A stretch of 64,000 nt of DNA from Allocoleopsis franciscana PCC 7113 (GTDB taxonomy: Bacteria; Cyanobacteriota; Cyanobacteriia; Cyanobacteriales; Coleofasciculaceae). Position numbers and translations under genes: made by a program. Positions 2,441 through 45,101 of the stretch are shown one piece after another; the stretch's first letter is position 1, and each line of letters opens with the position of its first letter. The notes under the pieces were generated by a model that was given only the letters and a program-made list of their open reading frames with translations, was not told where the DNA came from and searched no databases. The stretch is taken from the NCBI RefSeq assembly GCF_000317515.1, contig NC_019738.1, positions 2,251,623 through 2,315,622 on the forward strand. The letters are read 5' to 3'.

Positions 2441-2844
2441 ATTGACAAGCTCTAGATGCTCGAAAAAGCTACAGAACAACTCGGCTGTTCACGAGTCACG
2501 ACAACACGACTCGCAATTATCCGATCTGTCCATCCTTATAATAGCTGGAGATTTTTCGAGTGCTGTCTACAGTTTATGGCATAAGTGGCAACCTCTCATA
2601 CTAAAATGCTTCTATTTTGATCGAACAACCCAGAAAATTGCCCTAGGGAGAATTTTACTCATAGAAGCGTTAATGAGTTGTAGAAAAATCTGCAATTGCT
2701 AAAATGCATGAAGATTAGAAGAAATGATCGAAAAACACTTGTCAATAGAGAGAGATTTAACGATATATTTTTTATAGAGCTTTCATAGCTTGACTGGGAA
2801 ATGACCAATACCATCCTGAAATTTGAAGGATATCTAGCAAAAGT
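2441..2844. other. Divergent intergenic region, sdhB / cyAbrB
   Basis: 404 bp separating two divergently transcribed genes; it must hold promoters for both. It is AT-rich near the cyAbrB end. No conserved short gene was seen. The best sigma-70-like pair for the plus strand is annotated separately at 2739-2767. Confidence 0.5.
2739..2767 (+). promoter_or_regulatory. Possible promoter of the cyAbrB gene
   Basis: TTGTCA (2739-2744), 17-bp spacer, GATATA (2762-2767), followed by an AT-rich stretch, about 78 bp before the ATG. The -10 is not perfect (consensus TATAAT); an overlapping TATATT sits two bases further. Confidence 0.35.
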
Positions 2845-3258
2845 ATGACAGAAACCCAAACTGCTCCACTTACAGGGAAAGCCTTGCTTCAAAAAGTAAA
2901 AGAGCTTTCCCACTTGCCCCGACGAGAAACAGCAAAACGCTGTGGCTATTACACCGTAACTAAAAACGACCAAACCCGCGTCAATTTAACAGATTTTTAT
3001 GATGCGGTGCTTGCGGCTAAGGGTGTTCCTCTTGATCCAGAGGGAACAAAAGATGGTCGTGGTCGGGAGCCGACTTATCGGGTGAGCGTCCATAAAAACG
3101 GTCAAATTGTGATTGGTGCCACCTACACTCAGGCAATGGGATTAAAGCCCGGTGATGAGTTTGAAATTAAACTGGGCTACAAGCATATCCATCTAAAACA
3201 GGTGGATGGTGATATGAGCCGGGTTGAAGATCAAGAACTGGAAACCGCTGATGTGTAA
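2845..3258 (+). CDS. cyAbrB family transcriptional regulator
   Basis: 137 residues. The N-terminal part (about 8-60) has LTGKALLQKVKEL and RRETAKRCGYYTVTKN, typical of cyanobacterial AbrB-like proteins. The C-terminal part (about 78-120) is the AbrB-like DNA-binding domain with YRVSVHKNGQIVIGATYTQAMG and PGDEFEIKLGYKHIHL. In this family the AbrB domain is C-terminal, unlike in Bacillus AbrB. cyAbrB proteins act as global regulators of carbon and nitrogen metabolism in cyanobacteria. The length matches the family. Sequence alone does not tell me whether this is the cyAbrB1 (Sll0359-type) or cyAbrB2 (Sll0822-type) orthologue. Confidence 0.93.
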   Translation: MTETQTAPLTGKALLQKVKELSHLPRRETAKRCGYYTVTKNDQTRVNLTDFYDAVLAAKGVPLDPEGTKDGRGREPTYRVSVHKNGQIVIGATYTQAMGLKPGDEFEIKLGYKHIHLKQVDGDMSRVEDQELETADV

Positions 3259-3346
3259 TGGGTAACCCTTAAGGATGGGTTGTGGATTTATCCATCCTTG
3301 TGTACGCTTTCGATCTGTAGCTCCTCACAATCTGCCGATCTCGCCA

Positions 3347-4213
3347 ATGGCTATATTTGAGCAGGCAGCTAATCACGGGTTGATGTCTCTGGTAACATCA
3401 TCAGCTCTGGTAAAAGTAGCGGCTTTTTTCATCGCTTGGGTCGCTTTGTGGCTGCCTTTGGCAATTCCTATCGCTACACTCCTGAAATGGCATCCTCTTA
3501 AGCCCTTGGCAGCAGAGCAAAAGCTGCCATTACTCGCTGCACTTTACCTAATTGCCCCCCCCCTTTTATGGGGGGCCTGTTGGGTAGAGGGGGTGTCTTT
3601 TTCTAATTATGGCTTGGACTGGAAATTAGCTGTTTTAAGTTCACTAGGGCAAGGATTAGGCTTCGCGATTCTAAGCTTAATCATTGTTTTTATGGGGCAG
3701 TGGTTACTCGGTTGGATCGAGTGGCATCACCAAAACTGGCAGCGCTTAAGAAAAGTTTTACTACCCATACTGTTTTTGGGATTGTGGATTGGGGTTACAG
3801 AAGAGTTAGTCTTTCGGGGCTTGTTACTCAATGAACTACAACAGGATTACTCAGTCTGGGTAGCCGCTGCAATTTCTAGTGTAATTTTTGCCTTATTACA
3901 CCTAATTTGGGAACAGCAAAATACCTTGCCTCAACTGCCCGGACTGTGGTTTATGGGAATGGTATTAGTGCTAGCTCGTTGGGTCGATGGCGGTAGTTTA
4001 GGTTTAGCATGGGGGCTTCATGCTGGGTGGATTTGGGGCTTAACATGCTTGGATACGGCTGAATTAATTTCTTACACAGGCAAAGGCCCAATCTGGATGA
4101 CAGGTTTGGGAGAAAATCCCTTAGCTGGGGTCGCTGGTTTTCTATGTTTACTAGGAGTCGGTGCCTTACTATTATTTCTCTTGCCTGACGCCTCATGGGA
4201 TTTTAGATTTTGA
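3347..4213 (+). CDS. CPBP family intramembrane metalloprotease-like protein
   Basis: 288 residues from the ATG at 3347; an upstream in-frame start at 3275 adds 24 residues without membrane or family character. Six to eight hydrophobic segments. The CPBP (Abi/CAAX protease) motifs are present: EExxFRG as EELVFRG (Glu about 152-153), a histidine in FALLHLIW (about 185), and a later membrane helix with LAWGLHAGW. The family contains Rce1-like CAAX proteases and bacteriocin-immunity proteins; the substrate here is unknown. It follows cyAbrB by about 90 bp on the same strand and could be cotranscribed with it. Confidence 0.88.
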   Translation: MAIFEQAANHGLMSLVTSSALVKVAAFFIAWVALWLPLAIPIATLLKWHPLKPLAAEQKLPLLAALYLIAPPLLWGACWVEGVSFSNYGLDWKLAVLSSLGQGLGFAILSLIIVFMGQWLLGWIEWHHQNWQRLRKVLLPILFLGLWIGVTEELVFRGLLLNELQQDYSVWVAAAISSVIFALLHLIWEQQNTLPQLPGLWFMGMVLVLARWVDGGSLGLAWGLHAGWIWGLTCLDTAELISYTGKGPIWMTGLGENPLAGVAGFLCLLGVGALLLFLLPDASWDFRF

Positions 4214-4432
4214 ATGAAAAATCTCAGCTTGTTAAGCTTAATGTGACGGTTTTTTATAATACAGCTATTTCGCCTATTATTCTTCGCTTTTTAGCGTCAT
4301 TACGACCCATGACGATCTCCCCGACGGAGGTGAAGCTCTTGTGGGAAAATTTGATATTCCTGGTACTTGTCACATCTTTCCTCAAACCGAGCGTTGATAC
4401 CCGTATGACTATACTCAACTTCTGTTGATGTC

Positions 4433-4495
4433 GGGGTCATGCTCTTAAACTGCTGGAATACTTATCCAATTTATATCTTGGCAGTTTATGACCCC
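4433..4495. repeat. Bulged inverted repeat between convergent genes
   Basis: GGGGTCAT (4433-4440) plus AAACTGC (4447-4453) pair with GCAGTTT plus ATGACCCC (4481-4495), giving 15 bp of stem interrupted by a 6-nt bulge on one side. It sits in the 345-bp gap (4214-4558) between the convergent CPBP gene and the minus-strand operon, so a role as a two-way transcript end or RNA structure is possible. No credible gene was seen in this gap. Confidence 0.45.
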
Positions 4496-4558
4496 ATTGT
4501 TTTAAGGTTTTGTGAGAAATTCGGGTTAATGGATAGACGTTTCTGGTTTTGGAACCGA

Positions 4559-5347
4559 TCAAGTACAAATCTGTAAAGGAACGGCTTGCTTCATTTCTTT
4601 GAGTGCATCCGTTAGTGCTGTCGAGGGATTTTCCACGCTGTAGATTTCCTGCAAGACATCTAACCAAAGCCGCTGTTCGGTAAAGTAATTAGCACGCTGC
4701 CTCGCGATCTCTTCGGGTGTGGCTTGTTGGGCTTGAAGTTGCTCGTCCAAACGCTGCAATTCCTGCTTAATGCGATCGCGCTTTTGGCTGTCCATGACTC
4801 GAAACTGTGTTGTCACCGGTTGAGAGAAACCGATGATCCTCCATTCATAAGTTTGACCGGGTTTGAGCGCCTCTTTGTCATACAAAACTTTGTTCTGATT
4901 CTGTTGGATATTGTGACTCCACAACGGCTTATCACTGCCGACTTGATAAAGTTCCACCCGAATCGGTCGTCCCGTCCAGACAAATAAGGGGCGATCGCTC
5001 CACATTTCTTTGTTGTTGCCCAGCGCAATGGGTGAGAGCAGACAGGGACCACGCGAACTCCCCTTTTTACTATCTTCAGCGGGCTGATTATCTTGTGCAA
5101 GAGGTTGCAAAATACGCGTCCAAGGATTGCTGCTCCGTAAGCTTCCCCGTGAACCTCCAGGTCTACCTTGCTCAGGAGCACTAGGATTAGTAGGAGGCGG
5201 ATTATCTTTGGTTTGAGCTTGAGCGACATTCTCCCCAGAACCGAAGAGATGGGTTTGTGCTCGGGTAGTTTGAGTTGAGTCAGTTAGCAAACTAGAAACC
5301 AGCGTCGTCACGAGCAAGGTTGATAACACCCAGTTAAACTTTGACAT
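4559..5347 (-). CDS. Secreted hypothetical protein of the CHASE2 operon (DUF928-like)
   Basis: 262 residues. An N-terminal signal peptide (hydrophobic residues 6-24, cleavage near TTRAQT) is followed by a Pro/Ser/Gly-rich linker (about 50-80). A beta-rich domain (about 100-180) has CLLSPIALGNNKEMWSDRPL and PGQTYEWRI, resembling the extracytoplasmic proteins that accompany CHASE2 proteins in cyanobacteria. The rest is a coiled-coil-like helical tail (about 185-230). The DUF928 assignment is from memory and not secure. The start codon overlaps the end of the CHAT-CHASE2 gene by 14 bp, which implies translational coupling and a shared pathway. It may be an extracytoplasmic ligand or partner of the CHASE2 sensor domain. 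Confidence 0.7.
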   Translation of the reverse strand: MSKFNWVLSTLLVTTLVSSLLTDSTQTTRAQTHLFGSGENVAQAQTKDNPPPTNPSAPEQGRPGGSRGSLRSSNPWTRILQPLAQDNQPAEDSKKGSSRGPCLLSPIALGNNKEMWSDRPLFVWTGRPIRVELYQVGSDKPLWSHNIQQNQNKVLYDKEALKPGQTYEWRIIGFSQPVTTQFRVMDSQKRDRIKQELQRLDEQLQAQQATPEEIARQRANYFTEQRLWLDVLQEIYSVENPSTALTDALKEMKQAVPLQICT

Positions 5348-7895
5348 GTTTTTTTCTCTCCAATTGAGCTAACAGAATATACGTCCAAAATGTTGCAGTC
5401 GGTACCACTAATGGCAACAGCACTTCTGCTGTGATGTAAAGCTGTAAACTAACGAGTCCATAAATAGCTGTGGCACTCGCCATAACTAACATCCATTTGC
5501 TCCTTCCTGAAGGAAAAACAAATAGCCTATACTTTTCTTTCCGCTGTCTGCTTCCCCCTTTATTGCCTTCTAGCGCCAATACCGCTCCTTTCCCCAACAG
5601 CGCAGCTAAGCCAAGAAGCCACAAATCGGGAATCGGAACCACCAGCCGTTGATTCAAGAAATGATGAATCATATAAGCGTGGGCTTCACCTCCTGTGAAT
5701 TTCTCACGCCCAGAGCCAGGATTCGCTTGAGAATGCCAGTAACCAAGCGCTGGCGGCATGGGGAAATTATCCTCGCCCAATTCAGTAACGCCAGCCTCGC
5801 TATATCCGCCTGGGGCAATCATCACCACTGGCTGGTGATTCGGGTGTTGGGGTAGGGAAGTGGCTGAACTCTCCAGAAACTTCCAAGCGGGTAGGGGTTG
5901 GTAGACGTGATCCGGCGGAATCGAGAAATCAATAATCGGGTGCATCCACATTTGACGTAACAGATAAGCAAAGTTAGTAATCGGATGTAAGCGAGCTTTG
6001 GGGGAGAATACATCCCGATAATCTTTGCCCGTGGTTTTGTAAGCATAGGTGCTCAGGGTTGAGTGCAAATCATTCGTAGATTGCAATTGGGGTTGAGGCA
6101 GCTTTTGGGATGAGGAAGTGTTCAGCCGAGAAGCCAACGCCAAAAGGTAAGAAAAGGGTATGCGCCGGGGATCAGACTTCTGCATCGGCACCAGCGTCAG
6201 ATGTTTGAGATGATTACCCAGAACCAGAATATCCCCTTGCAAGCTCCAATTGGGCTGGGCAAGTTCGGGCAAAACCTCAAACCAACCTCCCGTATCATTG
6301 GGTGTTGTGGCGAATACAAACCAGGTTCCCTGCTGTTCTACGGCGGAACGCAGCGACTGAGCGAGTTTGACATCGTTTTCCTTTTGGGTTTGAGGGCGAT
6401 CCAGCAAATAATCAACGCCGACGACTTTAGCTTTTAGTGCCGCCGCCTTGTCCACCAACTGTGCCAAATAGCGGCGATCCATGGGGACGGCAGGATAAGG
6501 AATTTTTGCCTTTTGCAGGGAGTCGTCGTCAATTTGTACCAGAAGCACAGGAGGCGGCTTGGGGGTTGGGACTTGATGAGTGAGTTGGCGATACATCGCT
6601 TGGACTAACACCCGTCGCTCTAATAAATTGCCTTGTATGGGTAGCTGCCAACTCAGTAAGACGAAGGCGGTTAAAGCGATCGCTTCTTTTGGGGTGGGTA
6701 GCCAGCGCGTGAGGATTTCCTTAATACCAAAGGGTTTCAGACGAAACTGAGGGGCATCAGGATGGCGAAATAAAGACGGAATCAGGTAAGCACTGGGATA
6801 AGTCAGGTGTTTATCTAACTTGAGATACTGACACGCCGTGAGCATCGCCTCGTGGACATCTTTGTACTGGGCGAGACGCTGGAGAAACCGCAGGAGAAAT
6901 TCTTGGGCAACGTTATTGTGAATCGGTTCTCGCATGATCGCCACCTGACTCAACCCTAAGCTAATCAGGGCATTGGCAATGTCGAGTCCGTTGCAGGAGT
7001 TAAATAGGGCAAATTGCAATCCCCGTTCTTTGGCAAGTAACAGCGACTGTTCAATTTCGTTGAGGAATAGGGAGAAACCGGGAGCAATCCCTAATTTCCC
7101 CCCAATTAAATCCGCTTCATTACTGTGACCGGCAAACAGTAACACATCCCAGCCCTGTTCATCTGCGATCGTCTCAATAATTTGGGCTTTAAGTTCGCCT
7201 ACATCCTGTCCCGGTTGCCAGCCGACAAAGTGAACGTCTGCGATGGACTTGAGCGATCGCACTGCTTCTTTATCCGCTTTAAAATCTAACCCCGTATCAT
7301 CCCCCAAAATCGCTAAAATCCTCGTCCGACGACGGCGACTCTGGGGCTGTATGGCTTTTTCGTGAATATTGGGAGGCATACGGACAATCCGAATTTGACT
7401 CGGACGTGCAAACTCAGTCCCAATTTCCCAGGCTTCCCAGGGTAACCGTGCCAAATCTAAGGGATTGCAGGTGAGGAAAACCTCAACAAACGGTGAATTC
7501 TGTGCTTTTTCTCCCTCTGCATTTCTCCCATCCTGGTATGAGTTTCGGTTTCCCTCACTCACTGATTGAGCTATAGTCGAGCGAATGTCAAATAACTCAC
7601 CCTGACGCAGCCAATGATGAAATTCATAGAGTAACTTGGCTTCAGATTGTACGAGTTTAGCGTGCCAATCCACCGGGGGGGGAGCAATCGTGCCGTTTTC
7701 CGCAACTCTCCCCCGTAAACTGGTTTGATAAAAATTGAGATAATCCGTTCTCCACTCTTCGTAGAGTGTGGTAAGCGTTTCCGGGTAGGGAAGCGTCACG
7801 TTGAGTTGCTGTCCTTGTCCCCAAGACAACTCAAATAGACAAAATTGCTCGATTCGTTGAACTTTGAGGTAGAAAACGGCAGCACTTTGGCTCAT
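5334..7895 (-). CDS. Membrane protein with CHAT caspase-like domain and CHASE2 sensor
   Basis: 853 residues. Residues 1-180 have no recognised domain. The CHAT domain spans about 190-380, with the catalytic His-Cys pair visible as FAGHSNE (His257) and FNSCNG (Cys301). A first membrane helix lies around 403-420. A CHASE2-type extracytoplasmic sensor (about 425-730) contains VLLVQIDDDSL and AKVVGVDYLLDRP. Two or three C-terminal membrane helices (from about 735) end in the cytoplasm. CHAT domains are caspase/gingipain-related cysteine peptidases; CHASE2 senses unknown external signals. An architecture in which an external signal controls a cytoplasmic protease is plausible (inference). It overlaps the secreted-protein gene downstream and follows TPR, DUF1822 and sigma-like genes on the same strand. 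Confidence 0.88.
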   Translation of the reverse strand: MSQSAAVFYLKVQRIEQFCLFELSWGQGQQLNVTLPYPETLTTLYEEWRTDYLNFYQTSLRGRVAENGTIAPPPVDWHAKLVQSEAKLLYEFHHWLRQGELFDIRSTIAQSVSEGNRNSYQDGRNAEGEKAQNSPFVEVFLTCNPLDLARLPWEAWEIGTEFARPSQIRIVRMPPNIHEKAIQPQSRRRRTRILAILGDDTGLDFKADKEAVRSLKSIADVHFVGWQPGQDVGELKAQIIETIADEQGWDVLLFAGHSNEADLIGGKLGIAPGFSLFLNEIEQSLLLAKERGLQFALFNSCNGLDIANALISLGLSQVAIMREPIHNNVAQEFLLRFLQRLAQYKDVHEAMLTACQYLKLDKHLTYPSAYLIPSLFRHPDAPQFRLKPFGIKEILTRWLPTPKEAIALTAFVLLSWQLPIQGNLLERRVLVQAMYRQLTHQVPTPKPPPVLLVQIDDDSLQKAKIPYPAVPMDRRYLAQLVDKAAALKAKVVGVDYLLDRPQTQKENDVKLAQSLRSAVEQQGTWFVFATTPNDTGGWFEVLPELAQPNWSLQGDILVLGNHLKHLTLVPMQKSDPRRIPFSYLLALASRLNTSSSQKLPQPQLQSTNDLHSTLSTYAYKTTGKDYRDVFSPKARLHPITNFAYLLRQMWMHPIIDFSIPPDHVYQPLPAWKFLESSATSLPQHPNHQPVVMIAPGGYSEAGVTELGEDNFPMPPALGYWHSQANPGSGREKFTGGEAHAYMIHHFLNQRLVVPIPDLWLLGLAALLGKGAVLALEGNKGGSRQRKEKYRLFVFPSGRSKWMLVMASATAIYGLVSLQLYITAEVLLPLVVPTATFWTYILLAQLERKKHVKV

Positions 7896-8208
7896 ATCAA
7901 TGTAAGGTTGGGGATGAGATGATTAACGATGCACCCTTTTCCAAAAAATTGTTTCAGTCTTTTCTCAATGAATCACAATTCAAAATTTTAAACTAAAGTT
8001 GAATTTGGGATTTTAACGGTTCTTCTGTCCTATATCAATCATGAATTATCAGTAGAGCAATTGTGTTCAGGCTGAGATGGGAATACATGGGTCTAATCCT
8101 CTATCAACTGGAAAGCCGATGGCGTACTCATCTTTCATCTTTATATCTCTCAGCCATATAGGACTTATGCAAAAGTTCTAGCTCAAAGCGCCAGCCCCAA
8201 CCGATTTC
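7896..8208. other. Intergenic region inside the CHAT-CHASE2 block
   Basis: 313 bp between the TPR gene and the CHAT-CHASE2 gene. I see no gene and no strong terminator. The gap is long enough for an internal promoter, so the CHAT-CHASE2/secreted-protein pair may also be transcribed on its own. Confidence 0.4.
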
Positions 8209-9537
8209 TTAATGGTTTTGGTTAAAAAAATTGCAAATCGCTTCTTCACAGGCATTTTCACCGAAAGTTTTAATAATCTCTTGAGCCTCCTGGTAGCACT
8301 TCACGCCTTGAGCCTGTAAACCTAGACGCTCATAGACACTGACTAAATTCTGTAGTAGCTTAGCGATCGCCACTGTATCATCGAGAAATCGATCAATCCT
8401 AGCGGTGTAATTATAAGCTTGCAAAATCCCTAACGCTTGTAAGTGATACCACACAGCACGAGCAGGATGACCCATCTTGTAGTGAACAGCTGCAATGTAA
8501 TCAATGGTTCTCGCTTCAGCACTCGGTAAATCACCCACCTCTCGCCGAATTTCCCAGACTTGCTGATACAGTTCCATCGCTTGTTGATCTTGGTTGAGAC
8601 GGACGTAAGTTGTCGCAATACTCTCTAGAACCTTGGCTTCACTCTTGCGGTTACTGAGTTTTTGGTAATTTGTCAACGCTTGCTCAAAGAATGCCAATGC
8701 CTGACGATATCGCTTCATCTGCAAATAAATTTCCCCAATATTGTGCAGGGCAGTCCCTTCTCTATCAAGGGAATTTCCTAAGTCTTGAAATTCTTCTAGG
8801 GCTTGACGAGAACACGACAGTGCTTGCTCCAACTGACCTAAACTGTTGTAAACGGCTCCTAGATGATTGAGTAAAAGGGCGATACCTGCCTTGTTCCCAA
8901 TATGCTTAAAAATCTCTAAAGCTCGTAAATAAACCTTCAGTGCCTTGTATTCTTGACCGGTTTGGCGATAAGCGGCTCCCAAGTAATTGAGAATCACACC
9001 AACGAGCACATGATTTTCTAGAGATTGAGCCAATTGCAAAGATTGTTTTAGGCAATTAATGCCCCAAGCGTGTTCTCCAAGTTTGCAGTGAATAATCCCG
9101 ATGCGTTTGATGATGTTAACTTGGTTCGCCCGGTTATTTTTCCCTTGGGCGATGGTTAAAGCTTGTTGCAATGTCTTGAGGGTAGCTTGTAGCTGATTAG
9201 AATGATCCTGTCGCTCAATCGGTTGGGGAAGTCCTAGATTTTCTGGGCTTGAGCTTCCCTGACTCAGTAATTCTCTCGGAACGAGGGCATTTGTTGTGTG
9301 CGGCGCTGTGGGATGCCCAATGGTTGACTTTGTACCCAACGTTGATGGTAAACTCGATGCCCTGTCGTGGCTAACGGGATGCCTTTTGGCACTCTCCTCG
9401 TAGGAGCTTCGCTTTGAGTGATGATGTTGACCCCATTGAGAGCGATCGCTGTCCGATGAAGTGCGGTAGAATTCTTCACCCTGTTCATAGTGTTGTCCGA
9501 ATTTCGTTTCAGCTTGATGATCAAGACAAGATTGCAT
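8209..9537 (-). CDS. TPR repeat protein
   Basis: About 442 residues from the ATG at 9537; an in-frame TTG at 9543 is also possible, and GGGAG lies about 10 nt before the ATG. The first 105 residues are polar, Ser/His-rich and probably disordered. From about 110 to 430 there are seven or eight tetratricopeptide repeats, with motifs such as GVILNYLGAAYRQTGQEYKA and ALHNIGEIYLQMKRYRQALA. TPR solenoids bind peptides or partner proteins. Lying between the DUF1822 gene and the CHAT-CHASE2 gene, it probably acts as an adaptor or as a substrate of the CHAT protease (inference). No enzymatic domain is visible. Confidence 0.85.
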   Translation of the reverse strand: MQSCLDHQAETKFGQHYEQGEEFYRTSSDSDRSQWGQHHHSKRSSYEESAKRHPVSHDRASSLPSTLGTKSTIGHPTAPHTTNALVPRELLSQGSSSPENLGLPQPIERQDHSNQLQATLKTLQQALTIAQGKNNRANQVNIIKRIGIIHCKLGEHAWGINCLKQSLQLAQSLENHVLVGVILNYLGAAYRQTGQEYKALKVYLRALEIFKHIGNKAGIALLLNHLGAVYNSLGQLEQALSCSRQALEEFQDLGNSLDREGTALHNIGEIYLQMKRYRQALAFFEQALTNYQKLSNRKSEAKVLESIATTYVRLNQDQQAMELYQQVWEIRREVGDLPSAEARTIDYIAAVHYKMGHPARAVWYHLQALGILQAYNYTARIDRFLDDTVAIAKLLQNLVSVYERLGLQAQGVKCYQEAQEIIKTFGENACEEAICNFFNQNH

Positions 9538-9695
9538 GGTCAAAGTTCTCCCTCATTTTGGACTCAATTGGGTATACCTCTGACCTTTGAAAGGATATGC
9601 ACTTGTAGTGGCAGTAGATCCCTGACAAAAGCCGATTTTTCTTCCCTAGTAGAATACTTATCTGCTTTTTATCAGCCATTTATGCAAGCTGTCGA

Positions 9696-11048
9696 TTAAT
9701 CTTGGGGATTAAAACTAAAGGGGGGTAAGGTCTGCTCGATCCCGGATGGTAAGCTGACAGTGACGATAAACTTCTCATCCCAAGTCCCCACAACACGGGT
9801 AAAGAAATAGGAATTACGCGGTTGTGAATCCAACATCCGTTCTACCAAAATGCCCGTTTGGTCGCTGACTCGTAATTGCACACCTGTGGGTAGATGAGTG
9901 CCTGGAGTCGCCCCTAACACGAGTAATAACGTCCATTCAGGAATCGAGCCAGAGAGCAAAGGCCATGTGACAGCATAAAGGCGTAAGGGCATTCCCGCTA
10001 ACCGCAAATCCCGATAAGCGCCCCGCGCTTCTAGAGGAATCTCGACCTGCGTCTGCCGTAGTTGGGTGACAATGTCTTGAAATTCCTCCACTGGCGATCG
10101 CATCGTTCTGATGGGAGCCAAGCTGGGTAGCAGCACCCACGACAATTCTTGTGCCAATTCATCGAGTTCACCTAATAACCATCGTCCAGCATTCAGGGCG
10201 GGTTGGGTAACCATTTGCAGCGTGTCGGCAAGGTGTTTTTTGATCGCGGTGAGCGGCTCAGGTTGTCCGGCTGGCTGTTGTAATTGATACACCCAGTTCA
10301 GTAACTCCGGATTCGTGAGAACGAGCGCACCCTGTTCCCAGGTCAAAACCTGCCACAACTGGCGATCGGATGATTGTAAATTAGGCAACAAAGCTTCTAG
10401 TTCCGAACGCTTACGTGCTAATTGCATGGAGCGTTGATTGACGCTTTCTGGCAAGGGAATGGCGGTGGGTTCTAGACAGCGCAAATTCAGTAACAAACGG
10501 TCGGGATTGTGCTCAAACCAGTTTAAAGGAACTTGATAAGTCCAGTCTTCTTCGGCCTCTAAATCATGTTGTTTGCGTTGGTTCAATAACTGTTGGTAAG
10601 ATAAGAAACCTTGCACAACGGCAATTTCTTGTTCTTCTTGCACTTCTACCAAAACATAGAAGTGTGCCACAAATTCCGGTAAATCTACAACCGCTCTAGG
10701 CACAGTGACTTCTTCATCCGTGAAGCTACCCATGGCAATCAGGCAAAGTTTAAATTGACCCACTTGCAAATGGCTCACGGCATCAATTGCATTTGCCATA
10801 AACGGCTGTAAAAGAGTGCATTGTTTTTTATTCAGAGTCAAGTCTGTGGCACGGGATTCCAACCATTCCTCAAAACCGCCGAGTGCCAGCGCGTTGAGAT
10901 AAGTTTGCCACTGCCGTTCTTCATCGGGAATTTGAGCACTCAAGTTTAACGCTTGGTCAACAACATCAGGTGATAAGTTGATGGCTTCGGTGGGCAAAAC
11001 ATCAAAATCAGGCAACATTTGGGCAGTACGATTTGAGAAATTAGTCAT
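9696..11048 (-). CDS. DUF1822 family protein
   Basis: About 450 residues from the ATG at 11048. This start is favoured over the upstream in-frame one (11093) by AGGAG 9 nt before it and by the short overlap with the stop codon of the sigma-like gene (11041-11048). The N-terminus has LPDFDVLPTEAINLSPDVVD, and further on WQTYLNALALGGFEEWL, typical of the cyanobacterial DUF1822 family. The C-terminus has an all-beta stretch with WTLLLVLGATPGTHLPTGV and QLRVSDQTGILVER. The function is unknown. From family knowledge, DUF1822 genes repeatedly lie next to sigma-70-like genes in cyanobacteria, and this overlap fits a functional pair. Confidence 0.85.
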   Translation of the reverse strand: MTNFSNRTAQMLPDFDVLPTEAINLSPDVVDQALNLSAQIPDEERQWQTYLNALALGGFEEWLESRATDLTLNKKQCTLLQPFMANAIDAVSHLQVGQFKLCLIAMGSFTDEEVTVPRAVVDLPEFVAHFYVLVEVQEEQEIAVVQGFLSYQQLLNQRKQHDLEAEEDWTYQVPLNWFEHNPDRLLLNLRCLEPTAIPLPESVNQRSMQLARKRSELEALLPNLQSSDRQLWQVLTWEQGALVLTNPELLNWVYQLQQPAGQPEPLTAIKKHLADTLQMVTQPALNAGRWLLGELDELAQELSWVLLPSLAPIRTMRSPVEEFQDIVTQLRQTQVEIPLEARGAYRDLRLAGMPLRLYAVTWPLLSGSIPEWTLLLVLGATPGTHLPTGVQLRVSDQTGILVERMLDSQPRNSYFFTRVVGTWDEKFIVTVSLPSGIEQTLPPFSFNPQD

Positions 11049-40274: not shown

Positions 40275-40913
40275 TCATACCTCTGTCATTACCTGCCCAA
40301 GGCGTTTGAGAATCTGCAAAATATTGTAGAGTTGGTTGTGACGCTGATAGAGAGAGAACTCATCGGACAGGTCATATTGTGGCTCTCTAGATTGAACCAA
40401 CTTAATAAAGATAAAATGACTGCCATTTGTGACTAATCCAAAAATGGGACGTTCTGGATTAGGGTTAGCCATCATGTAGGCTAAAGCTTGCGGTAACGCT
40501 ACATCTGTCGAGAAGGTTGTACGCTTTGACTCAATGACGAGAACCCAGAACTGTTCCTGTATAACTAGGGCATCAATACGTCCCCGCAAGATTTCATCCC
40601 GATCTTCAATGGCTATCTCAACACCTGTTTCTGTGCGAAACCTGAAGGGAGGGTCATAGAATCCAGCTAAATCCAAGAGTTTAGCCAACACCACCATTTT
40701 GACAGCACCTTCTGCTAAGGGGCCATCTGATCTCTGATAAAAGTATTGTTGTTTAATCCCATCGAGAGCTTGCTTTTCTAAGTCAGTGAGTTGGCTTAGA
40801 CCATTGAACCATTCAGTGAAGAATTGGTCATTGTCACTACGCCTGAGATTGAACCTGCCTTGTAGCTGGTTAAGAGTGGTGATGTTCTTCTCAATCGCAA
40901 TAGTCTGAGCCAT
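40275..40913 (-). CDS. PD-(D/E)XK nuclease-like protein (HsdR N-terminal type)
   Basis: 212 residues. The central motif is the Asp in ILRGRIDALVIQ, 13-15 residues before VLVIESKRT: the D...ExK signature of the restriction-endonuclease fold, as in the N-terminal domain of type I R subunits. The later helix ALPQALAYMMANP and strand PIFGLVTNGSHFIFIKL complete the usual 'nuclease plus QALAYM' pattern. There is no helicase domain, so it is a stand-alone nuclease module. It begins 47 bp after the CHAT/STAND/TPR gene on the same strand and is likely cotranscribed, which suggests a nuclease effector of that system (inference). Confidence 0.75.
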   Translation of the reverse strand: MAQTIAIEKNITTLNQLQGRFNLRRSDNDQFFTEWFNGLSQLTDLEKQALDGIKQQYFYQRSDGPLAEGAVKMVVLAKLLDLAGFYDPPFRFRTETGVEIAIEDRDEILRGRIDALVIQEQFWVLVIESKRTTFSTDVALPQALAYMMANPNPERPIFGLVTNGSHFIFIKLVQSREPQYDLSDEFSLYQRHNQLYNILQILKRLGQVMTEV

Positions 40914-40960
40914 AAAAGCGTCTGCTGGAGATTACTGGTAATACTACTATGCGATCGCTT

Positions 40961-43900
40961 TTACGAGATGTCGTCTCTCATCTGTTGTACTCTGGCGATA
41001 ATTTGCCTCACTGTCTCAGCGCCAGGTGATTGGAGACGCTGCAATATCTCCAACGATTGCTGCAAATAATTCAATCCGGTGTTAAAGTCGCCTTTCTCGT
41101 CGGCTAACAACTGCCCTAGCATGGCTAATGTCGCTGCCTTGCCTTGGGCATTACCGATACGTTCAGTGATTTCCAACGATTGCTGATAAAGTGCGATCGC
41201 CTCTTCGATTTCTCCTGTGTTGGCTTTGAGTCTCGCCAGTTGGTGCAACGTCGCTGCCTTGGTTTGGGCATTACCGATACGTTCAGTGATTTCCAACGAT
41301 TGCTGATAAAGTGCGATCGCCTCTTCGATTTGTCCAGTGTTGGCTTTGAGACTCGCCAGACAGTGCAACGTCGCTGCCTTGCCTTGGGCATTACCGATAC
41401 GTTCAGTGATTTCCAACGATTGCTGATAAAGTGCGATCGCCTCTTCGATTTCTCCTGTGTTGGCTTTGAGTCTCGCCAGTTGGTGCAACGTCGCTGCCTT
41501 GGTTTGGGCATTACCGATACGTTCAGTGATTTCCAACGATTGCTGATAAAGTGCGATCGCTTGTTCGATTTCTCCCGTGTTGGCTTTGAGACTCGCCAGT
41601 TGGTGCAACGTCGCTGCCTTGCCTTGGGCATTACCGATACCTTCTTCGATATCCAACGATTGCTGATAAAGTGCGATCGCCTCTTCGATTTCTCCCGTGT
41701 TGGCTTTGAGTATCGCCAGACAGTGCAACGTCGCTGCCTTGCCTTGGGCATCACCGATACGTTCTTTGATTTCCAACGATTGCTGATAAAGTGCGATCGC
41801 CTCTTCGATTTCTCCCGTGTTGGCTTTGAGTATCGCCAGTTGGTGCAACGTCGCTGCCTTGCCTTGGGCATTACCGATACCTTCTTCGATATCCAACGAT
41901 TGCTGATAAAGTGCGATCGCCTCTTCGATTTCTCCCGTGTTGGCTTTGAGTATCGCCAGACAGTGCAACGTCGCTGCCTTGCCTTGGGCATCACCGATAC
42001 GTTCTTTGATTTCCAACGATTGCTGATAAAGTGCGATCGCCTCTTCGATTTCTCCAGAGTTGGCTTTGAGTATCGCCAGATTGTGAATAATGGCTGACTT
42101 CTCTTTTTCGTCGTCTTGAGGGCAGCTATCTAGGGCTTGTTGATAATGGGTTTGTGCTTGACTCACCTCACCCAATTCTTTCTCAGATCGAGCCAACCCA
42201 TGCAGCACTCGGTAATCTTCAGCGATTTCTAGAGTGGCTTGGCACAACTCAACGGCTTCCCGAAATCGGCTTTGATTAACCCATCGCCATGCGAGAGTAT
42301 CTGCTATTTCTACAGCAATCGTTTCCACCTTCCCCCGCAACGCCAAGCGATGAATTTCTAGCCGTTGTTCCTCGGTTGAAGTTTCTGCCTCCTCCCACCA
42401 GAGACGATACAGCACCTCAGCCGCTTGCTGATGCAACCTCTCCCCCAACCCCTCTCCTGCAAGGAGAGGGGAGAAAGAGGAATCTGACTCCCCCTTCCCT
42501 CGTAGGGAAGGGGGTTGGGGGGTTAGGTTTTTCTCCAAAATGCGCGGCACTCGTAGCGACTGATCAGGACTTACTTCCAACAATCCCAACGCCACTGCCC
42601 GATTAATCTGCCGTTCGAGATTAGGAGTTTCTTCACAAACTGCGGCTATTGCCTCCCTCGGTACTGGCAACTCAAACACCAATCCCCGCCGTAATATCTC
42701 CTCTAGCGTTGGATCGATCTGTTCCAGCAGCGCTTTTGCCAAAACTTTCTCCCGCAACTCCACTGGATTCGTTTCCAAACCCTGTAAAATCTCCGCCACT
42801 GTTTTCTTTTCCCCCTGTTGAGAACCCCCCCAACCCCCCTTATCAAGGGGGGAGAAATCTCTGGCTTCCCCCTTATCAAGGGGGGAGAAATCTCTGGCTT
42901 CCCCCTTATCAAGGGGGACGGGAGGGGGTTCTAAATTCAGCAGCACCTTATCCAACCATTCCAATAACCGAGGATTCCCATCCGCCAATCTGGTTGCTTG
43001 AGACTGTAACGCCTCATCCACCTGAGATTTCGCATCAAAGGCAGAGAGACGACTACACTTTTTTCGCAAATCCGCCCCCCGCAATCCCTCCATTGGTTGC
43101 TTGTAGAAATCCTGCAACAGGGTGGACTCAAAATCGTAACGGCAGGTAAGGATTAAACGGTGAGGCGCGGAAGTATCCTCAATAGCCCAGACTAACGCCT
43201 CCAATACCCTTGCCGCTTCCGGTTGCAGCACATACCCACCATCGCGAGGTTCCAGATTCGCTTCAAAATCATCCAGCACCAGCAAAAAGGGCTTTGCCGC
43301 CCCGTCTTCCAACTGCCGAAACACCCGCCGCAGGCGAAACTTCAACTCCTCCTTGTCATCCTGTAACGCTTCCCGCAGTTCCCGACTATCCAACGCCGCC
43401 GCTAACTTATTTACCAGACTGGGTTCATCGACTCTCCCCACCCAGACAATCCGCTCAAATTCCGGGAGTCTGTCGCACAACCTTGCGGCTAAACTACTCT
43501 TACCCAAACCCCCCATGCCATGAATCAACACCCCCACTCCTTCTATGTTCCCCCCTTGATAAGGGGGGCTAGGGGGGTTCTTCAATGCCCGCAAGCAATT
43601 TTGCAACTGACGGCGACGCCCGATAAAACTGCCACGAGTCGGGACTTTTACCTTACCAGCCGGATCTAAAAACCGTTCGGCAACTGAAGGCTTGGGTGCA
43701 GGTTTCCGTCCAAGAGTCAGCAACGGCGTCACCAACCCCCCCGGTAACGTTTCCGCCACGTACAACCGCAACAAATGCCAATCCCTGGCTTTATTCTCAA
43801 TCAACTTCTGGTACGTCAGGGCAACTGCCTCCGTCACCGACTTCCCCGCCGCCAACCCTTTATACAATGCTGCTGCTGCCGCCCTCGCATCCGTATCTAA

Positions 43901-44764
43901 AACCGGCTGTCCCCAACCCAAAACCAAATTTGCTCCAGCTTGCAGCAACTCCTCTGCCATCGACGGCACCGCCCCCGCATCGCCAGCTTGCCCCGTGCGA
44001 CACCCAGAGAGGAAAATCAGTTTGGGTAATTGGAATTGCAGTTCGGTAGCAATATCCCTCGCACTGGCAAGGTACAGTTCCCCGGTTTCCGTCTCGGTAT
44101 AAAATCTTGCTCCCTCCTCCGTAATCGTCGCATGACCCGTCAGGTGCAAGATATCAAAAAACCCCTTCCCCCGATCCTCAGCTAAATAGCCCAACTCGGT
44201 CAAGCAGCCACTTTCTTCCACCGTCAGCGATAAAGGTTTCCGCGCCGTCGCTTCCAGGATTAGTGCCTCCTCCCGTTCAAACTCCAGCACGGGTTCCACC
44301 CCTAACGGAGAGGTTGCCATAAACAAAACATTCAGCGCCCGATTTTCCGGTTTCGCCTCTACGGACAATTTTTTCCCGGTATCCGATGCTACCCACCGCA
44401 CGGGAACTACCCCAGGCAATCTCTCCAGCAAAAAGCCCTTGCCATCATGCAGCAACTCCCAAGGCAAGTGAGCGAGTTTTTCCGCCGCTTTAATCGCTAA
44501 AACAATCCCTTCCCGCCAATATCGGTCAATTGCTTGTTGGAGAAGGCGATCGCTGCCATCTAACCAGTTATACAGTTTTCGCCCAGTTATGGTATAGTTA
44601 ACAGCCAAGCGAACGTAGTAGTCTTGTTCTGCTAACTGAATCAGGTCTGCGATTTCCCCCAGAGGAAGCGATCGCTTCTCGTACTGGTTGGGATTGTCCC
44701 AGAAATAACGCAGCTCTACGTAATTATCCGCGACGGGCTTGAGGTCGAGGTGGAGCGTCTTCAC
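40961..44764 (-). CDS. CHAT protease - STAND NTPase - TPR protein (NLR-like)
   Basis: 1267 residues, GTG start at 44764. The N-terminal CHAT domain (about 135-345) has the catalytic His in LHLTGHATI (His211) and Cys in FLSGCRTGQ (Cys255). The NB-ARC/STAND NTPase (about 375-680) has SFIGRRRQL, Walker A HGMGGLGKS (415-423), Walker B FLLVLDDF (493-500) and a sensor-1-like LILTCRYDF. A winged-helix-like linker follows. The C-terminus (about 860-1240) is a TPR array of eight near-identical 40-residue units plus degenerate ends. The overall plan is that of NLR proteins with a caspase-like effector. It overlaps the small EACC1-like gene by 41 bp and precedes a nuclease gene by 47 bp. Repeat-derived peptides interrupt it at three sites. 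It is probably an activation-by-sensing conflict protein (inference). Confidence 0.88.
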   Translation of the reverse strand: MKTLHLDLKPVADNYVELRYFWDNPNQYEKRSLPLGEIADLIQLAEQDYYVRLAVNYTITGRKLYNWLDGSDRLLQQAIDRYWREGIVLAIKAAEKLAHLPWELLHDGKGFLLERLPGVVPVRWVASDTGKKLSVEAKPENRALNVLFMATSPLGVEPVLEFEREEALILEATARKPLSLTVEESGCLTELGYLAEDRGKGFFDILHLTGHATITEEGARFYTETETGELYLASARDIATELQFQLPKLIFLSGCRTGQAGDAGAVPSMAEELLQAGANLVLGWGQPVLDTDARAAAAALYKGLAAGKSVTEAVALTYQKLIENKARDWHLLRLYVAETLPGGLVTPLLTLGRKPAPKPSVAERFLDPAGKVKVPTRGSFIGRRRQLQNCLRALKNPPSPPYQGGNIEGVGVLIHGMGGLGKSSLAARLCDRLPEFERIVWVGRVDEPSLVNKLAAALDSRELREALQDDKEELKFRLRRVFRQLEDGAAKPFLLVLDDFEANLEPRDGGYVLQPEAARVLEALVWAIEDTSAPHRLILTCRYDFESTLLQDFYKQPMEGLRGADLRKKCSRLSAFDAKSQVDEALQSQATRLADGNPRLLEWLDKVLLNLEPPPVPLDKGEARDFSPLDKGEARDFSPLDKGGWGGSQQGEKKTVAEILQGLETNPVELREKVLAKALLEQIDPTLEEILRRGLVFELPVPREAIAAVCEETPNLERQINRAVALGLLEVSPDQSLRVPRILEKNLTPQPPSLRGKGESDSSFSPLLAGEGLGERLHQQAAEVLYRLWWEEAETSTEEQRLEIHRLALRGKVETIAVEIADTLAWRWVNQSRFREAVELCQATLEIAEDYRVLHGLARSEKELGEVSQAQTHYQQALDSCPQDDEKEKSAIIHNLAILKANSGEIEEAIALYQQSLEIKERIGDAQGKAATLHCLAILKANTGEIEEAIALYQQSLDIEEGIGNAQGKAATLHQLAILKANTGEIEEAIALYQQSLEIKERIGDAQGKAATLHCLAILKANTGEIEEAIALYQQSLDIEEGIGNAQGKAATLHQLASLKANTGEIEQAIALYQQSLEITERIGNAQTKAATLHQLARLKANTGEIEEAIALYQQSLEITERIGNAQGKAATLHCLASLKANTGQIEEAIALYQQSLEITERIGNAQTKAATLHQLARLKANTGEIEEAIALYQQSLEITERIGNAQGKAATLAMLGQLLADEKGDFNTGLNYLQQSLEILQRLQSPGAETVRQIIARVQQMRDDIS
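41131..42090 (-). repeat. Eight tandem 120-bp repeats encoding TPR units
   Basis: Eight consecutive 120-bp units, about 90-98% identical by eye, each encoding one 40-residue TPR of the type LHxLAxLKANTGEIEEAIAL followed by YQQSLEI. Variation is limited to a few codons: the third residue (H/N/C/Q alternate), 'I/S/R' in LA(I/S/R)L, and EIKERIGDAQ, DIEEGIGNAQ or EITERIGNAQ. Each unit contains one HIP1 octamer GCGATCGC at the same place. Units 2-3 and 4-5 (counting from the N-terminal end) share paired features that suggest a 240-bp duplication. The array is subject to length change by recombination. Confidence 0.95.
42435..42527. repeat. Intergenic-type hairpin repeats inside the CHAT/STAND/TPR gene
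   Basis: Two hairpins, CCTCTCCTGCAAGGAGAGG and CCCCCTTCCCTCGTAGGGAAGGGGG-like (the second about 42489-42513), plus spacer, sit in frame and encode a Leu/Gly/Glu/Pro-rich peptide (TPQPPSLRGKGE, LLAGEGLGE). Such hairpins normally lie between genes in cyanobacteria (compare 47439-47460). They lie at the boundary between NTPase and TPR regions. Confidence 0.8.
42835..42918. repeat. Triple 33-bp repeat inside the CHAT/STAND/TPR gene
   Basis: Two full copies (42835-42867 and 42868-42900) and a partial third (42901-42918) of a 33-bp unit whose palindromic core is CCCCCTTATCAAGGGGG. It encodes SPLDKGEARDF repeated in frame. The 33-bp length keeps the reading frame. Confidence 0.9.
43550..43580. repeat. 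Palindromic repeat insertion inside the CHAT/STAND/TPR gene
   Basis: CCCCCCTTGATAAGGGGGG plus a GGCTAGGGGGGTT tail, in frame, encodes NPPSPPYQGGN just before the Walker A motif. It is of the same palindrome class as 42835-42918. Confidence 0.75.
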
Positions 44765-45101
44765 GTTTACGGCTCCACTGGTCGTCTAGAATTTGCTTGA
44801 TTTGCTCAAGTGTGGCATTCTCCAGCAGCAATCGCCTACCGTTGCGCCCCTGAATCAGTACCTTCTCAATCTTTTTACCAGACTTGCCTTGTTTATATTC
44901 CTTGTACCACTTGCGAATTTGTTCAGCGATCGCAACTGTGCCCCCAACAATGGCGACAATAGTACCAATTGTGATTAGAGTACCCTCTTTCCCTGCTCCG
45001 CCCTCAGTTTCCCAACTTCCTGATAACCCAGAAATTGAGAAGAGTTCTTCTGTTGCCTCAACGGCGTCTTGTCCTTGTATCTCGAATTGAATATCTGCCA
45101 T
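44724..45101 (-). CDS. Small EACC1-like membrane protein of conflict systems
   Basis: 125 residues. An N-terminal soluble stretch (MADIQFEIQGQDAVEATEEL, about 1-35), one hydrophobic helix (about 40-60: TLITIGTIVAIVGGTVAIAE), a basic amphipathic segment (IRKWYKEYKQGKSGKK) and a C-terminal domain with GRNGRRLLLENATLEQIKQI. The layout resembles EACC1 (effector-associated constant component 1), which from memory of the comparative-genomics literature accompanies variable effectors in NTP-dependent conflict systems of multicellular bacteria. Its coding region overlaps the CHAT/STAND/TPR gene by 41 bp, so the two are translationally coupled. It likely tethers or regulates the large protein at a membrane (inference). 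Confidence 0.6.
   Translation of the reverse strand: MADIQFEIQGQDAVEATEELFSISGLSGSWETEGGAGKEGTLITIGTIVAIVGGTVAIAEQIRKWYKEYKQGKSGKKIEKVLIQGRNGRRLLLENATLEQIKQILDDQWSRKREDAPPRPQARRG

Follow-up and report, generated by a model that had tools for sequence, protein, structure and literature searches.

Gene layout of the locus

Three open reading frames, of 125, 1267 and 212 aa, follow one another on the minus strand of the window (here, the whole analysed stretch of 64,000 nt from the filamentous cyanobacterium Allocoleopsis franciscana PCC 7113). They encode a small protein, a protein combining CHAT, STAND and TPR regions, and a PD-(D/E)XK nuclease. An earlier note, made from the sequence of this stretch, had described three same-strand genes with a 41-bp overlap between the small and the CHAT-STAND frames and a 47-bp gap from the latter to the nuclease, and these coordinates agree with the list of open reading frames. 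The features considered below are as follows.

44724..45101, minus strand: putative small partner gene, 125 aa (open reading frame, DNA of relatives, AF2 fold)
44778-45101, minus strand: ancestral 108-aa part of the small protein, as judged from the DNA of relatives
44724-44777, minus strand: private 17-aa extension of the small protein and its new stop, attributed to stop loss
40961..44764, minus strand: CHAT-STAND-TPR gene, 1267 aa (open reading frame, Pfam, motif alignment)
43781..44587, minus strand: CHAT caspase-like protease domain, aa 60-328 (PF12770, 3e-21)
44132-44134 and 44000-44002, minus strand: codons of His211 and Cys255, respectively, the CHAT dyad
43262..43627, minus strand: STAND NTPase core of the AP-ATPase/NB-ARC type, aa 380-501 (PF13191 and PF00931)
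41130..42079, minus strand: predicted TPR sensor array, 7.9 copies of a 120-bp unit (tandem-repeat analysis and unit comparison)
40275..40913, minus strand: PD-(D/E)XK (HsdR_N-like) nuclease gene, 212 aa, adjoining the pair and outside the conserved unit
43549..43581, minus strand: in-frame palindromic mini-repeat between CHAT and the NTPase, aa 396-406
42815..42933, minus strand: in-frame palindromic mini-repeats with a 33-bp unit in the STAND C-terminal linker

Two close relatives (G001, a congener, and G006) have a TGA stop at codon 109 of the small gene, and 10 nt separate it from the GTG with which the CHAT gene starts. In the window, the TGA of codon 109 has become TGG, whereby 17 residues are gained and the 41-bp overlap is created. 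As both relatives retain the TGA and the 10-nt gap, the overlap appears to be a private stop loss and not a conserved coupling device. Scanning the locus for promoters and terminators yielded nothing exceeding shuffled sequence, PADLOC matched the cassette by generic TPR and PD-DExK models only, and sequence searches against solved structures gave no convincing relative for any of the three proteins.

The palindromic mini-repeats, formed by a core CCCCCTTATCAAGGGGG and a C-rich relative of it, are located at 43549-43581, 42815-42933 and 42440-42526, in frame within linkers of the CHAT-STAND gene; the core has 15 exact copies genome-wide, four of them inside this gene.

The CHAT-STAND protein

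The N-terminal part of the large protein matches the CHAT protease domain (PF12770) at 3e-21, the central part matches the NTPase domains AAA_16 (PF13191) and NB-ARC (PF00931), and TPR repeats are found at 3e-57. Walker A (GMGGLGKSS, aa 416-424) and Walker B (LLVLDDFE, aa 494-501) are both intact, and H211, C255, K422 of Walker A and D498, the first Asp of Walker B, do not vary across 37 aligned relatives. The domain match combined with the His-Cys dyad identifies the N-terminal region as a CHAT protease, and the order of effector at the N-terminus, NTPase, and repeats or another sensor at the C-terminus is that of a STAND, NLR-like switch. Thus, the description of this gene in the earlier note, a CHAT-STAND-TPR protein with intact dyad and Walker motifs, is confirmed by the Pfam matches and the invariant motifs. 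In an AF2 model the CHAT region has as its best solved relatives the activated SAVED-CHAT, the Craspase TPR-CHAT and separase, with E from 7e-6 to 6e-4.

The genome as a whole contains 54 CHAT matches; besides the gene considered here, one more, weak match lies in the window, at 6822-7214.

The small gene and the CHAT-STAND gene are found together

The small protein and its profile were searched in 57 relatives and 386 cyanobacterial genomes, and the DNA around the matches was read. A CHAT gene lies directly downstream of 27 out of 30 intact small genes with readable downstream sequence, at a distance of 0–310 bp, one of these CHAT genes being truncated; the three small genes without a CHAT gene are L033, L035 and L137. 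Six further loci (L153, L155, L156, L157, L036, L037) are not among the 30, being fragments, situated at a contig edge, or doubtful. From the CHAT side, the small gene is present at 13 of 20 loci; the seven loci lacking it include distant copies from Acidimicrobiia and Holophagales, and one of them is on a contig with only ~1 kb upstream. These neighbourhoods indicate that the small gene and the CHAT-STAND gene are a real, conserved two-gene unit, so that, when co-occurrence is taken as the test of the cassette, this part of it stands.

The pair is patchily distributed. It occurs across the order of the host, in 29 out of 386 cyanobacterial genomes, and the small gene was found in 9 of the 57 relatives. 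The CHAT-STAND gene of the congener G001 breaks off inside CHAT; most of the STAND-TPR part is missing and the remainder is out of frame. Given the patchy distribution and this broken copy, the pair is dispensable.

The large gene of the congener (L030, G001, 7811-10020) is an apparent pseudogene. Two more observations concern the surroundings of CHAT-STAND genes. At L020, where the small partner is missing, the gene is preceded by one for a 647-aa protein (2617-4560) with a HExxH-like motif (LHEIGH) and a TPR-like tail. In many Nostocales (L010, L013, L014, L016, L022, L026) short tandem repeats of ~21-33 bp, as estimated by eye, follow the CHAT-STAND gene and translate to repetitive open reading frames, e.g., LNSINESLILIKEA.

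The adjacent nuclease

The earlier note had assigned the third gene to the PD-(D/E)XK nucleases by its D...ExK motif. This holds: D114, E128 and K130 (D114...E128-S-K130) are invariant in 31 homologues, while the HSDR_N match, at 22.8 bits, is under the Pfam cut-off of 25.1. Since the three residues are invariant, the nuclease is probably an active enzyme with a role of its own.

It had also been proposed as a component of the system and its second effector. The system would then have three genes, and the nuclease might be a zymogen that CHAT cleaves. The same strand, the 47-bp gap and the intact active-site residues are consistent with this proposal, as are the retention of the nuclease beside the pair in the congener and the nuclease-protease pairs recruited by immune systems (PMC12799240). 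The distribution of the family argues against it. Nucleases of this family are dispersed and multicopy: 45 out of the 57 relatives have them, and a single genome can contain as many as 29. Just two of 30 nuclease loci, those of the window and of the congener, adjoin the pair (with ~1.5 kb of flank on each side), and the flanks retrieved for the other small-CHAT loci contain no homologue of the nuclease. Moreover, the congener has retained an intact nuclease, 96% identical, beside the truncated and frameshifted CHAT-STAND gene. The proposal of a nuclease component thus does not survive the co-occurrence comparison, and we regard a three-gene system as very improbable; the nuclease is best described as a passenger from a dispersed family and not a third part of the device.

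Fold of the small protein

The small protein has no match in Pfam, NCBIfam or PADLOC. Its central stretch, which includes a GIVGG patch, has a hydropathy of 2.1 over 19 residues, and values around 2 are seen in most members of the family, which by hydropathy alone would be called transmembrane; the earlier note had taken it for a membrane-spanning protein. Yet the AF2 model (pLDDT 80, pTM 0.72) is compact and ferredoxin-like, with a beta-alpha-beta-beta-alpha-beta-beta-alpha topology in which the supposed transmembrane segment is split into a strand and a helix. Comparison of the model using Foldseek and VIA gave generic ferredoxin-like folds, with no match at E <0.001 and Z values <8. We therefore prefer a soluble domain to a transmembrane one, without certainty, as the model was built on a shallow alignment of 10 sequences.

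The same features bear on the possibility that the small protein itself is the effector, a membrane-active peptide that would be silent until cut or released by CHAT in the manner of gasdermins. Its hydrophobic glycine-rich stretch with hydropathy of about 2 over 19 residues, the basic conserved segment RKW.EY.....K that follows it, and the adjoining gene for a caspase-like protease would suit such a role. The compact alpha+beta fold of the model is difficult to reconcile with it, and so are a polar insertion (TSIIINN) within the stretch in one member (L154) and Glu and His inside the stretch of another (L035), where hydropathy falls to 1.3. Taken together, we consider a membrane-active effector unlikely.

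Relation to EACC1

The earlier note had called the small protein EACC1-like. Compared with the published description (PMC7159879), it shares the order of elements of EACC1 and the central glycine-rich hydrophobic stretch, and the adjacent 3' gene encodes an N-terminal caspase-superfamily protease with a variable C-terminus, as in EACC1 systems. EACC1 proteins also have a single conserved TM helix with a patch of small residues; for the small protein, the hydropathy and the GIVGG patch speak for such a helix, the AF2 fold and an indel in a relative against it. Sequence membership is another matter. PF19953 (EACC1) has no match in the small protein or in its whole own genome, no match above the cut-off was obtained in any of 292 cyanobacterial genomes, and the best member of the small family reached E=0.029. 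The profile-profile score of the small family with EACC1 is 18.7, which does not stand out from decoys (20.4 for the reversed one, at most 18.2 for flank-shuffled ones with the hydrophobic block kept); a first comparison had given P=0.0015, a signal no longer distinct once the alignment was deepened and decoys were added. For comparison, true EACC1 loci were located in actinobacterial genomes. Membership is thus supported neither by HMM searches, direct and family-wide, nor by searches of whole genomes, nor by the profile-profile comparison against decoys, and the small protein appears EACC1-like by its layout and gene position alone, though the two may be distantly homologous. The sole weak EACC1 match in cyanobacteria, L085, aligns poorly to the small family and was set aside as unrelated.

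Exchange of the sensor and the TPR array

Among the 17 relatives scanned, the C-terminal sensor is a TPR array in ten and GUN4, a tetrapyrrole-binding domain, in seven. In the tree of the CHAT-STAND part a TPR protein, L025, is nested in the GUN4 clade, and hence the sensor has probably been exchanged at least twice.

The array in the window comprises 7.9 units of 120 bp with a 93% match between units, which exceeds the level considered as high internal conservation in fungal NLRs, 85% over 100 aa (PMC4986451). Differences between the units are concentrated at few positions, mostly 7, 10, 32 and 40, and are mainly amino-acid changing. The pN/pS ratio of units in the window is 1.24, an indication only, as unit pairs are non-independent; pooled over relatives it is 0.67, again peaking at these positions, so that positive selection is not general in these units. 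In the customary TPR numbering, position 10 of the unit corresponds to the canonical position 9, one of those that face the ligand.

The GUN4 versions bear on the trigger and on a further reading, a stress or developmental regulator in which CHAT would process a regulatory protein upon an internal signal, e.g., tetrapyrrole level. Such a role would agree with the GUN4 sensor in seven of the 17 relatives, with the abundance of CHAT proteins in the genome (54 matches), and with the lack of recognised defence genes around the cassette. On the other side, patchiness, decay and fast change of the TPR array are more usual in conflict genes than in core regulators, and we consider a regulator rather unlikely. 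Still, the exchange for GUN4 is as compatible with the sensing of stress as with that of phage, and as to the trigger, the GUN4 versions lean to internal stress, the patchy and decaying distribution, to phage.

Proposed mechanism and comparison with known systems

We consider it probable that the two genes make up an NLR-like protease switch that is triggered by a ligand and serves a defence-type response, the small protein being its dedicated partner. The C-terminal sensor, the TPR array here and GUN4 in some relatives, would bind the ligand, upon which the STAND NTPase would change its state and oligomerise; the N-terminal CHAT protease would thereby be switched on and cleave at least one cellular protein, the outcome most likely being dormancy or cell death upon infection. 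The small protein would be the dedicated partner of CHAT, possibly a ferredoxin-like adaptor, an inhibitor or the first substrate. Of this scheme, the pairing, the conserved catalytic and NTPase motifs and the sensor exchange are observed, and the remaining steps are drawn from what the named families do. Counting against the scheme, the cassette has no recognised defence genes around it, the pair is patchy and broken in the congener, and seven of 20 CHAT loci do without the small gene. The logic of sensor, switch and effector suggested earlier is retained here for TPR, STAND and CHAT, now with the small partner conserved, and is abandoned for the nuclease, which as an effector lacks conserved co-occurrence.

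Among known systems, System 4 of Kaur et al. (2020) consists of a 5' small gene and a 3' gene for a caspase with a variable domain, and EACC1 systems are described as common in actinobacteria, with sporadic occurrences in proteobacteria (PMC7159879). The resemblance of the present pair to System 4 concerns both genes: the 5' protein has ~110 aa, with short alpha+beta flanks around a centre that is hydrophobic and rich in glycine, and the 3' gene encodes a caspase-superfamily protease at the N-terminus, followed by C-terminal modules that are exchanged and include STAND and TPR. In contrast to System 4, the protease here is CHAT, while that of the actinobacterial loci with the 3' gene in view resembles, by eye, the C14 caspase; moreover, STAND is among the variable modules there and constant here. 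The best reading of these likenesses is a cyanobacterial variant that would work like the EACC1-caspase two-gene conflict systems, with membership unproven.

Antiviral STAND proteins have a tripartite logic of effector, STAND and sensor (PMC10907252), and the order of these parts, as well as the TPR sensor, is shared with Avs, bNACHT and NLRs; the proteins studied here differ from them by the fused CHAT effector, the AP-ATPase/NB-ARC core, the usual small partner and the GUN4 alternative. The CHAT protease fold is common to the Craspase TPR-CHAT (Csx29) and SAVED-CHAT, but these are gated by CRISPR RNA and by a cyclic nucleotide, respectively, whereas we propose gating by STAND and the sensor. 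EACC2-caspase and bacterial TRADD-N systems (PMC8195603) are similar in having, in cyanobacteria, a constant caspase module with a variable C-terminus, and the RRM-like partner domain of TRADD-N may be likened to the partner found here; the difference is that no Pfam match to those families is observed.

As a more tentative extension, possible but not favoured, the pair may represent a distinct cyanobacterial family, in which a soluble ferredoxin-like partner, instead of a membrane sensor, would control or feed the CHAT-STAND protein and the sensor would swap between the fast-changing TPR and the tetrapyrrole-reading GUN4, so that caspase-like death would be tied to heme or photosynthetic status; EACC1 itself might share this soluble fold.

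For the description of the system this means that the nuclease, which is misleading, and the overlap should be dropped, and that the membrane-sensor model for EACC1-like partners is called into question. In filamentous cyanobacteria with large genomes, CHAT genes of unassigned use are present by the dozen. For one of these, a partner and a switch are now defined, and as its sensor is swapped in nature, its ligand specificity may be approached by exchanging the TPR and GUN4 ends.
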